Assembly (NCBI GenBank): GCA_025093985.1
Contig: JACAAK010000004.1
Coordinates: forward strand, 2,480,001 to 2,544,000
DNA from: Calvatia gigantea
Lineage: Eukaryota > Basidiomycota > Agaricomycetes > Agaricales > Lycoperdaceae
Length of the DNA: 64,000 nucleotides
Direction: 5' to 3'
Part shown: positions 30,325 to 34,219 of the stretch, one piece after another
Layout of the letters: every line of letters begins with the position of its first letter
How positions within the stretch are numbered: the first letter of the stretch is position 1
Made by a program: the position numbers and the translations under genes
Notes under the pieces: generated by a model
Databases searched by the model: none
What the model saw: the letters and a program-made list of their open reading frames with translations, nothing else
What the model was told of the DNA's origin: nothing

Positions 30325-33300
30325 CTAACGAGCATGAACTGGGCAGCTCTTCCCTCGTTGTAGCCAAGAGGAAAGGCAAGCTAACCAAAGGGCATTTGTA
30401 AGTTGCACTGACTGAGGATAAAAATACTGACCGTTATGAAAGCTGCAGAAGCAACTCAAACGAGCCACAGTAGAACCTGCATACACTGCGTCAATTCTGA
30501 GTGACGGAACCACTGAGGACCGAGTACCTTTGACAAATTCCTCCAAACAAATAACACCTTGAAGCAAAAGATTCAATGATCAACATGATTGGACCAGTGA
30601 ACATCTCAGCTTACATTCGACACCAAGTAGAGTGCTTTCAGCGGGAAGTCGATAGACGAGATAGCGAGAAGTCGCAGGTCCTTGCCCAGAACCGCCTTCT
30701 AGACATCGTCTGACATGCTCCTCCTGTTCTGCTGCACCACCGACTTCGTCAAGATCCTGATTACATACTGGACAGCTACGGAGCAAGCAGTTGATTTGTG
30801 CGTGATTCATGGGACGGAGTCAGAAGGAACATACTCGGCAAGGTCACTAAGTTGGGAGCTTGACTCTCTCCGCGTCACTCCACCTGGAACAGTCAACCTC
30901 TCTTGATCCACGACGATCCGTTCAATTGCGTTGCCTCGGTTAGTCAATCTGGACGGTACGGCAGCAAAAACCTCGTCGTAACACGTGTGGCAGACTCGCT
31001 GTGAGCTGGAGGAACCAGTTGGCTCTGGACCTGCTGGATCATGAACGATATCAGAAGGATCAAGCAAGACCCTGAATGATGAACAACGGTCGCAGAAAAT
31101 TCGGCCACATTTGCGACAGTGCTAGGGCGATATTCAATTTCTGTGATAATACCAAGGAATGTACGCTTACGTGCTAAAACCGGATAAACAGCGGTCAGTT
31201 GGGTCTTCTGAACAGAACGCAGAGGTACATACGCGGCGAAGCAAGAAGGTAAATCGCCTTTGGCAGTCTCGGCAATTGTGCACTTGTTCATCTCGTTCCC
31301 ATTGAGCAGTGAGCTGATGGGGAGTTGGAGGGGTCCAGTGGGGCGTGATGACCTTCTGGGGAGCCTCTTTAGTAGGAACGCGGAACTCTGGTGCTTGAGA
31401 AAGTTGAGGCGTAAGGTCGGTGGGGCCGCGTGAAACTCCCGGCCTATTGAAATAGTCCATCTGGTTCGACGCCCTCGACGCCGGTCTGGTACTCTCGGGC
31501 GTAGCGAAAGGATAACGGAATTCTTCAGAACTTGCATCATCATCATCATCATCAAACGGATCATCATCTAACATAACGTCAAAAGAAAACCAGGCAATTA
31601 TCACGTCTTACAAACCTTGACCTGTCAACAGGAGGACCCTGAGCACTCGCTGCAAGTCTCCGACGCTCAAGTTCCCGATTATATGCGTTCAGTAACACCT
31701 CAGCCTGGGTCTTACGCTCGACATCCTCGTCATCTGCAAAGTGTCAGGTGGTCAGGAAAAATCTGGAGAGCGATCCACTCACTCAACATGCCCTGACGCA
31801 GCTCAGTCGTGGCACGCTCAAGTTTGGCAATAACGCGGCGGGTTTCAACAGCTGAAGTGAGATTACTCTGGTCAATGTCCGGGGGAGTGTTTCCTACAAG
31901 ATAACGGGCTCGGCCGACATAATCTTGGGCGGAAGAAAAGAACCCGGATGACATCGCACCCAACTCTTGCCCTTCACCCTCAGTTAGGATCTTGTTGAGG
32001 CTCCTCAACATACGGTAACAGGGTTCCATCGGAATCCAGATGATACATCACTCCGTCCGGTTCAAGATACGGTAAAGGTGGAATATCCAAGCGCCGTCTC
32101 ATGATTCTAACCCAGCGACGGCGACGCACCCACACTGGTTGTGAACGCCCTGGGAGGGGAGAAGAGAGAGAGGCATTCCGAGATGAAGAGCCGCCGAACC
32201 CAGCAGCGACGACTCCGCTACCATTCAAAATTCGCTCAAGTTGGGGCAGCCGTTCTGCCAGTCCATCTATCATCGGGTTCCTCAAAAGATTGCGCATATT
32301 GCCATCCTTCCCCAGGCTCTACCCCTGGGTGCGTGACATCGAGCGTCCAATCAGACCTTTAAAAGTAGGATGTCAGCCTTGCAAATATATTTGACCATGA
32401 GGAGACACACAGCCAGAAATGACTCCTTTCAACGTTATCAGGAGCGGGCCGGTCAACGTTGACTGGTCCGTGGGATATCCCACGGCGCATTTCGCAAAGG
32501 AAGTTGGACACCGCTTCTTGAGGCAGGTATTAAGCGGTTGCTAGTTTCTTCATCGGGTCGCGGTAACTTCAACTCGAAAGGTGCGTGACGACCGCGTTTC
32601 CCTAGACCGGAAGCAGAAAACCTGGGCCGCCCACCAGATGTAGCAACTGTTTGGAAGCCGTAAGTCCAGCCGTTGATTTTCGTACACAATAATGGGTAAC
32701 GTTGTGTGCACCAAGAGTGGGTTGTAAGGAGTTGTTGTACCACGCCACTGTTCCGCTTCAGCTTGTTGTAGGACCTAATACCTTATGAGTCGGTGGGAAT
32801 GGAAAAGCCAAAGTACGACCAGACCTCGCAAATCCAAACTTCAAATACAGCAGCGGCAGCATCATAAGCAGTCTCTCCCCACTTGTTCCGTATGAGAGGA
32901 TTGGCCTTTTGTTTCGTGAGAAGGTAAAGGACGACAGGAAGGTGCCCCTTGGAAGCCGCATTCACTGTTTACTGATTAACATGACTGGAAATGAGCGTTT
33001 CCTCAGGGACTTACTCAGAGGTGTCCATCCGTCTTTGCTCTTGACATCGACACCTGCCACACCACCGACTGTTGTTGTCGTCCCTCCCTTCTCACAAAGG
33101 TATTTTACAATATCCAAGTATCCCTATACAGTTTTCAGCGATTGGCGAGGCGCAAGCTCAAATATAAGGGACTCACTTTTGAGCAGGCATTGTGAAGCGC
33201 GGTCCATCCATCAGCATCACGAGCATGAACATCAGCCTTGTGAGGGACCAGATAGCTGACAACGGCCATGTGTCCATTGAGTGCTGCCTTGTGGAGTGCC

Positions 33301-34219
33301 GTCTATACCAAGGCTCAGTTAGAACAACACGGTTGAAATATGACCAATATGCGAACCTCTCCTTCTCTGTCCTCAAGGTCAGGCATAGCCCCACAATCCT
33401 CGATTACTACAGTTTGTCAGATTTCATGTTTCCATGTCTGGTACGGAACTGCTTACGCCACTGGACAGTCTCCAGGTAACCTCTGCTAGCGGCCACATGA
33501 AGCGCCGTGAACCCCGTTCTCGTGGATGCGTCATTTGCCAAATTGAATTGTTCAACATCATTTCTCTCAAGCGCATTCCTGAAGAGTCTCTTGAGCAGCG
33601 GAAGGTCACCACTAGATGCTGCAGCATAAAGTGATTCAAGCTGTGCCGGAGAAGGTAGCTTTTGTGGAGGAGGCTGTGGCAGCTCCAGTTGTAGTTCTGG
33701 AACCGTGGAAACGTCTGCAGAAGCTGGAGAGAACGCAGGGGAGGCAGATGAAGAAGCTCCGAGAACAGCCAGTTGGGGGTCGACTCCAGGCGAATGGGTC
33801 TGAGGGGTCTGAGGCAAAGGTTCTGACTCGGTAGCTACAACATCCCTCGCTGATATCGCCGGTGACGTGTTGTCCTCTGATATTGGAGAGGAAGGTGGCG
33901 CATGTTCGAGTTCCGCTGCAGTGGTCAAGCTTGTGTCGGGGTACACGAACTCCCCATAATCATCCTCGTCTTCATTTTCTTTATGTTCAGGAATTTGTGA
34001 AGAAGGGTATGACACCACTCCACGTTGTGCCAGCGCCTGCCTCTCGTTCTCCCAATCCTCGTCCGAATCTCCGCCTTCCGGGGTCGTCACATGCGAATCC
34101 GAAGTTCTAGAAGATGAAATATCAGCACGGACTACCCCCAACTGCGAAGAAGTTAAGACGGTTTCTTACTCTTCAATGGTAGCCAAGTACTCAGCATGTT
34201 GGCGGAGAGGATCTGCCAT
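30325..34219 (-). CDS. Ankyrin - dysferlin/peroxin-type - FYVE - RING protein (probable E3 ligase)
   Basis: Domain order: a short N-terminus (MADPLRQHAEYLATIEE); an acidic region; ankyrin repeats (GFTALHVAASRGYLETV, GETALHKAALNGHMAVVSYL, GWTALHNACSKGYLDIVKYL, GWTPLMNAASKGHLPVVLYL, GETAYDAAA); a dysferlin/peroxin-type segment (DVTHPGVEPGEGWQYAQSF, VWVRRRRWVRIMRRRLD); a FYVE zinc finger (WERDEQVHNCRDCQRRFTF, RRHHCRKCGRIFCDRCS, QRVCHTCYDEV); and a Pib1-type RING (CVICLEEFVKG, LSCFCSFHNACLSSW, CPVH). This suggests a PI3P-binding endosomal/vacuolar ubiquitin ligase. About a dozen introns are needed, one only 39 nt (32647-32685). A 3-nt exon is needed to make the HH of the FYVE motif. Start ATG 34219. 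The join between the ankyrin and dysferlin parts (~32400-32500) is the least certain; two adjacent genes remain possible. Confidence 0.7.
31171..31173 (-). other. 3-nt micro-exon (CAC, His) in the FYVE domain
   Basis: On the minus strand the CAC is preceded by an acceptor (CGGTTTTAG) and followed by a donor (GTAAGC). The upstream intron spans 31174-31232 (59 nt, donor GTATGT, branch-like CTGAC) and the downstream one 31122-31170 (49 nt, ending CCCTAG). All three junctions are phase 0. With it, CGC CGC + CAC + CAC TGT CGC spells RRHHCR, the FYVE signature. Without it the protein would read RRHCR and lack one His. Confidence 0.6.

Follow-up and report, generated by a model that had tools for sequence, protein, structure and literature searches.

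A single-codon exon very probably completes the double-histidine motif of the FYVE domain in an ankyrin-FYVE-RING gene of Calvatia gigantea

The window analyzed here, a 64,000-nt stretch of contig JACAAK010000004.1 of Calvatia gigantea, carries a gene for an ankyrin-FYVE-RING protein in which one codon of the FYVE zinc finger appears to form an exon by itself. We regard it as nearly certain that the CAC triplet at 31173-31171 (minus strand) is a true exon, most likely constitutive, of a protein that is probably a membrane-held E3 ubiquitin ligase. A 3-nt exon completing the HH of the FYVE motif had been proposed in the first-pass annotation; the proposal is upheld by an enumeration of splice forms, by the Pfam score of the domain with and without the codon (74.6 versus 64.4 bits), by the continuous RRHHC open reading frames (ORFs) of relatives, and by relatives whose ORFs run unspliced into the flanking introns.

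The minus-strand gene spans about 34219 to 30325 and is the single full copy in the genome (46 Mb, 77 contigs). Its ankyrin region, FYVE domain and RING finger were delimited over 30325-34219 by exon-by-exon alignment with P0145, a protein of 1027 aa that is 83% identical to the window protein and reads RRHHCRKCG. The exon preceding the micro-exon (31233-31567, minus; left end 31567 uncertain) encodes the first CxxC pair of the FYVE domain and ends in CGC CGC (R-R). It is followed by an upstream intron of 59 nt (31174-31232, minus), which opens with GTATGT, contains CTGAC with its A 21 nt before the end, and closes with TTTTAG; by the micro-exon CAC (31171-31173, minus), in phase 0 on both sides and supplying the first His of RRHHCR; and by a downstream intron of 49 nt (31122-31170, minus; GTAAGC, TTGAA, CCCTAG). 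The next exon (30835-31121, minus) starts with CAC TGT, encoding the second His and the third zinc Cys, and holds the remainder of the FYVE domain, while the last four exons (30775-30615, 30557-30528, 30476-30432 and 30380-30325; together 30325-30775, minus) encode the RING finger and the stop. In the spliced protein, Pfam places zf-RING_2 at residues 362-402 of 405 (38.4 bits), C-terminal to the FYVE domain.

Judged from its domains, the gene product is probably an E3 ubiquitin ligase located on endosomal or vacuolar membranes through binding of phosphatidylinositol 3-phosphate by the FYVE domain. Two related records, P0033 and P0182, are annotated as 'putative E3 ubiquitin-protein ligase C36B7.05c', which we take to be fission yeast Pib1. 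The mushroom protein resembles such fungal FYVE-RING E3 ligases in having a FYVE domain followed by a C-terminal RING finger, and differs from the C36B7.05c type in its additional N-terminal ankyrin repeats, according to the Pfam labels of its relatives. The nearest named relatives among the matches listed are from Macrolepiota fuliginosa (84.0% over 405 residues), a member of the Agaricaceae, and Leucocoprinus birnbaumii (76.7% over 424 residues).

At the site itself, CAC is preceded by GGTTTTAG, where the acceptor ends in TTTTAG, and followed by GTAAGC. Scored with matrices built from the 12 other introns of the same gene, this acceptor and donor reach 6.2 and 7.7 bits, in agreement with the earlier description of CAC as bracketed by a good acceptor and a good donor. 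The upstream intron combines the good acceptor with a consensus-like branch site; the downstream intron combines the good donor with a weak acceptor, CCCTAG, which at 2.6 bits falls below all 12 other acceptors (3.1-6.4 bits). Both donors associated with the micro-exon, GTATGT and GTAAGC, recur at other introns of the gene, and its four splice dinucleotides and codon are intact. Splice forms with one or two introns of at least 20 nt were enumerated over a 195-nt region containing 27 GT/GC donors and 8 AG acceptors, yielding 22 in-frame, stop-free forms (2 with one intron, 20 with two). R[RK]HHC is produced by a single one of these, the CAC micro-exon with introns of 59 and 49 nt; inclusion of CAC thus restores RRHHCRKCG in frame, as first suggested. 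The one-intron joint with the same outer sites reads RRHC and is one His short, which confirms the initial reading, and among all the splice pairs enumerated no other supplies the second His.

Intron length separates the two joints. The 12 other mapped introns of the gene, located with P0145 as guide, measure 49-63 nt (mean 53.4, SD 4.3); introns of 59 and 49 nt therefore fit, and a single 111-nt gap, about twice the usual length, is an outlier. The claim that the flanking introns are normal for the genome thus holds against the 12 other introns of this gene, the set on which it was tested. A chance origin of the site was rejected on shuffle frequencies: when the gap was Markov-shuffled 100,000 times, AG/CAY/GT flanked by 40 nt or more on each side appeared in 0.354% of the shuffles, and the consensus form YAG/CAY/GTRNG in 0.015%. 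In the 64-kb window, both strands included, YAG/CAY/GTRNG is found once; among the 244 GT-AG stretches of 105-117 nt in the window, AG-NNN-GT is present in 27, AG-CAY-GT in 2 and the consensus form in 1.

The domain itself is better formed with the codon than without it. The Pfam FYVE model scores 74.6 bits with the codon versus 64.4 without (cut-off 27.8), and with the codon the domain aligns gap-free across the motif with the FYVE domain of EEA1 (1hyi, 1joc). Eight Cys in four CxxC pairs (NCRDCQRRFTFLLRRHHCRKC, CDRC, CHTC), with a 12-residue spacer from the second to the third zinc Cys as in EEA1, are obtained only with the micro-exon; the spacer is 11 residues without it. The spliced protein carries the motifs RRHHCRKCG, WERD and RVC; WxxD is a signature motif of FYVE domains. 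A family search of the genome found five other FYVE loci (L001, L002, L003, L004 with L007, and L006), all five of which keep [RK]HHC within one exon; this genome therefore does use HH. Omission of the micro-exon would remove one His of the lipid-binding motif and shorten the zinc spacing from 12 to 11. In EEA1, mutations in the RRHHCR motif impair phosphatidylinositol 3-phosphate binding, as described in the excerpted text of PMC8491906.

To compare relatives, protein searches were run with the 405-aa protein and with Mycena P0001 as queries, retaining the best 120 of 173 and the best 120 of 237 matches. This gave 213 different proteins. Of these, 28 were dropped for want of a FYVE anchor, and manual sorting by names, scores and the tree removed 14 ascomycete-like rows and 6 from the outgroup. 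The remaining 165 Agaricomycete-type rows comprise 131 from NCBI and 34 from other sources, with source tags and names copied by hand and with unnamed rows such as P0069 assigned to this type by similarity only. Rows were grouped by the residues between R-R and the next CxxCG.

The alternative to the micro-exon is a single 111-nt intron, giving a protein that reads RRHCRKCG with a shortened variant of the FYVE domain. Its support comes from the public models: among the matches listed, 83 of the 131 Agaricomycete-type NCBI models, belonging to 64 genera by name, are one-His (RRHC), 21 read RRHHC and 27 are otherwise different, and the shortened protein still exceeds the Pfam cut-off (64.4 versus 27.8 bits). 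Against it, the one-His form is found in none of the 34 non-NCBI ORFs among the matches listed, of which 22 read HH and the other 12 either continue into an intron or are truncated; the difference between sources in one-His versus two-His gives p = 5e-13 by Fisher's exact test, for rows that are not independent. Near-identical pairs also differ by source: the Suillus subluteus model has one His and P0159 (92.7% identical) has two, and the same holds for the Phanerochaete sordida model versus P0161 (89.6% identical). Together with an intron twice the usual length and a zinc spacing of 11 rather than 12, these observations leave the single-intron form a very improbable account of this gene.

The two-His ORFs behave as would be expected of spliced RNA or of intronless genes: of the 25 non-NCBI basidiomycete HH rows (22 plus 3 from the outgroup), 23 also read without interruption across three or more other positions at which the window gene has introns. 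P0145 is continuous at all eight positions tested, the second of which is uncertain in the window, and P0159 is an ORF of 971 aa whose contigs measure no more than 3212 bases, less than the 3.9 kb spanned by the genomic copy in the window. It is from this continuity that we infer an RNA origin for the non-NCBI ORFs.

The one-His label was also mapped on a tree. A quick tree of 155 rows, built with the residues in question left out, requires 39 changes of the label, 17 of which are forced by well-supported branches; a label that changes at least 17 times on such branches cannot be a slowly evolving trait. Shuffled labels require a mean of 51.4 changes, and none of 500 shuffles was as low as 39, which counts against pure noise: the label shows some clustering, of the kind expected when genomes are annotated project by project. 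A true RRHC variant was rejected on the source comparison and the tree, and we attribute the one-His form mostly to errors of annotation.

Several individual records deserve mention. Three Schizophyllum models and Pterulicium (P0024, P0196, P0203, P0207) group together and all read HH, possibly through intron loss rather than better annotation. The model P0022 (Collybiopsis luxurians) reads RRYHC, through either a genuine replacement of His by Tyr at the micro-exon codon or another annotation error. Paired NCBI records, P0061 with P0222 (Jaapia argillacea) and P0102 with P0215 (Flagelloscypha sp.), resemble the front and back halves of this gene; each pair comes from one species and from contigs of the same length, and P0061 breaks off just past R-R. 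Annotation has probably cut these genes in two at the micro-exon or close to it.

The strongest evidence for the same exon at the same place in other species is provided by ORFs that run unspliced into the flanking introns. A third search with a short query, kept out of the 131 and 34 counts, gave 106 matches and more such ORFs. Each was examined for whether codons can be chosen to give YAG/CAY/GTRNG, the codons being deduced from protein letters and not from DNA. Among ORFs entering from the left, 11 of 14 fit at a first-intron length of 50-58 nt (0.28 expected from shuffled peptides), and among those entering from the right, 8 of 9 fit at a second-intron length of 47-60 nt (0.15 expected from shuffled peptides). 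With four ORFs present in both sets, 16 of 19 different ORFs fit, compared with about 0.4 expected. The consensus is missed by three of the 19. P0070 allows the minimal AG/CAY/GT only, and P0274 and P0286, scored as misses, end in S-M before the stop, for which AG/CAT/GT is also possible by eye (uncounted). Seven left-hand and two right-hand peptides were left out as too short; P0073, which breaks off 7 residues past R-K, was left out as well.

Two NCBI models, each with one intron retained in error, outline the exon. In the Mycena venus model the first intron (60 nt) is retained and His is then spliced to HCRRCG; in the Mycena filopes model R-R is spliced to His and the second intron (48 nt) is then retained. 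The Leucocoprinus sequence reads RR-H-VSLNY, compatible with a GTRAG donor after the micro-exon.

Between conserved stretches outside the FYVE domain, the reading frame of the window copy steps by one at two places, 32762-32638 and 32048-31975 (minus). Splice pairs can formally bridge these steps, but at the cost of residues conserved in P0145. Relatives have continuous forms, and the steps reflect either assembly error or a decaying copy. Separately, the boundary at 31616-31568 (minus) fits only weak donors, the best being GTGATA at 31604, which would give a 37-nt intron and leaves the true joint uncertain; the donor needed there scores 2.3 bits, below all 12 other donors of the gene. On these grounds, the window copy could be decaying or misassembled, so that its splicing would tell little. 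We consider this unlikely: it is the sole full copy in the genome, its other exons are undamaged, most of them matching P0145 at 64-92% identity, the splice dinucleotides and codon of the micro-exon are preserved, and the exon is also supported from relatives.

Retention of a constitutive micro-exon would require that the two short introns be removed successively. According to an excerpt of PMC8378409, steric constraints are believed to prevent exon definition on an exon of such small size, and intron definition is the default for short introns; for plant micro-exons, the part of PMC8831610 available to us likewise argues that both complexes cannot be seated simultaneously. As the exon is too short for exon definition, each short intron would be recognized as a unit, one after the other, and such sequential removal is likely. 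The upstream intron, having the better branch site and acceptor, would probably leave first, although we favor this order only modestly. Its removal would fuse CAC to the long preceding exon, leaving CAC/GTAAGC as an ordinary donor.

Alternatively, the micro-exon could be a regulated cassette, with both forms made and the skipped form no longer binding lipid. The exon is in frame, so skipping would preserve the reading frame, and a fungal micro-exon in Xlr2 is described as a regulated switch in the consulted portion of PMC11121469. The one-His form that this predicts is present in 0 of the 34 non-NCBI rows among the matches listed, from a database clustered at 90% identity that could hide an isoform, and the earlier suggestion that skipping might switch lipid binding finds no support there. 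Regulated use is accordingly improbable. Slightly less probable still is its extension, in which the exon would owe its retention to regulated inclusion as well as to the damage that its loss does to FYVE: in some stage or stress both introns would be removed as one, so that a ligase one residue shorter would leave endosomal membranes, with the switch conserved across the fungal class.

The exon would have a long history. Among the matches listed, one-His models are present in Botryobasidium, Tulasnella, Exidia and Sphaerobolus; Botryobasidium, Exidia and Sphaerobolus represent the Cantharellales, Auriculariales and Geastrales, all of them Agaricomycetes. This spread makes it probable that the exon arose close to the root of the class, an age that rests on gene models and not on DNA. 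The protein of Calocera, a Dacrymycete, has two His, as read from protein alone. Unnamed ORFs near Botryobasidium, Tulasnella, Rhizoctonia or Rickenella (P0069, P0075, P0078-P0083, and P0074, which is nearest Rhizoctonia) read RK-H and then enter an intron; they seem to lack the micro-exon and to carry a single intron separating the two His, and are useful for dating the gain or loss of the upstream intron. One intron may have been gained or lost three bases from another early in Agaricomycete history, which fits relatives that seem to have the inter-His intron only.

Among micro-exons, coding exons no longer than about 30 nt, examples of 1-3 nt are already known in plants, flies and rodents, and codon-sized ones in truffle; the comparisons below draw on the parts of the cited papers that were accessible. 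In plants, 1-nt micro-exons of APC11 and VPS55 are conserved over a large clade and absent from the reference annotation, and the predicted proteins are damaged (PMC8831610). The mushroom exon shares the ultra-short coding length, the clade-wide conservation and the omission by annotation; unlike the plant cases, where loss of 1 nt shifts the frame or alters the N-terminus, its loss removes one whole codon from an invariant motif without a frameshift, in a fungus. Exons of 3 bp are reported in Drosophila homothorax and troponin T and in mouse and rat NCAM (PMC7392893). These too are single-codon, in-frame exons, and the homothorax one is conserved among insects; however, homothorax micro-Ex8 and the NCAM exon are alternatively spliced, whereas no alternative form was seen for the mushroom exon, and micro-Ex8 is part of a 48-bp exon, unlike the exon described here.

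Within fungi, the NACHT-ankyrin genes of Tuber melanosporum contain tens of codon-sized, alternatively spliced exons associated with receptor diversification (Iotti et al. 2012, via PMC4986451 and PMC3689799). The mushroom gene shares a codon-sized exon in a fungus, but here the exon is a single one in a single gene, and nothing points to its alternative use. Closer in taxonomy are the P450 genes of Phanerochaete chrysosporium, also an Agaricomycete, which combine introns of 45-55 bp with very short exons, the shortest reported in the excerpt being 6 bp (PMC1184071), compared with 3 here. The study of micro-exons in fungi is called relatively limited in the available text of PMC11121469. Mentions of micro-exons in the Rhizoctonia and Cryptococcus literature were discarded, as they concern aligner settings. 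Our literature search, whose scope left out most subscription papers, found no report of a FYVE micro-exon in fungi, and this FYVE instance is new within the literature searched.

The interest of the micro-exon lies in its size, its place, its breadth and its effect on annotation: within a zinc-finger motif that ranks among the most conserved, a single codon seems to have persisted as an exon across much of the Agaricomycetes. Nature thereby provides a test of how the spliceosome copes when an exon is too small for its two sites to be occupied at once, and of whether short-intron genomes carry out such splicing routinely. It also exposes a correctable error in public annotation: 110 of the 131 Agaricomycete-type NCBI models among the matches listed are without HH, which gives the FYVE proteins of mushrooms a degenerate appearance that is probably false.
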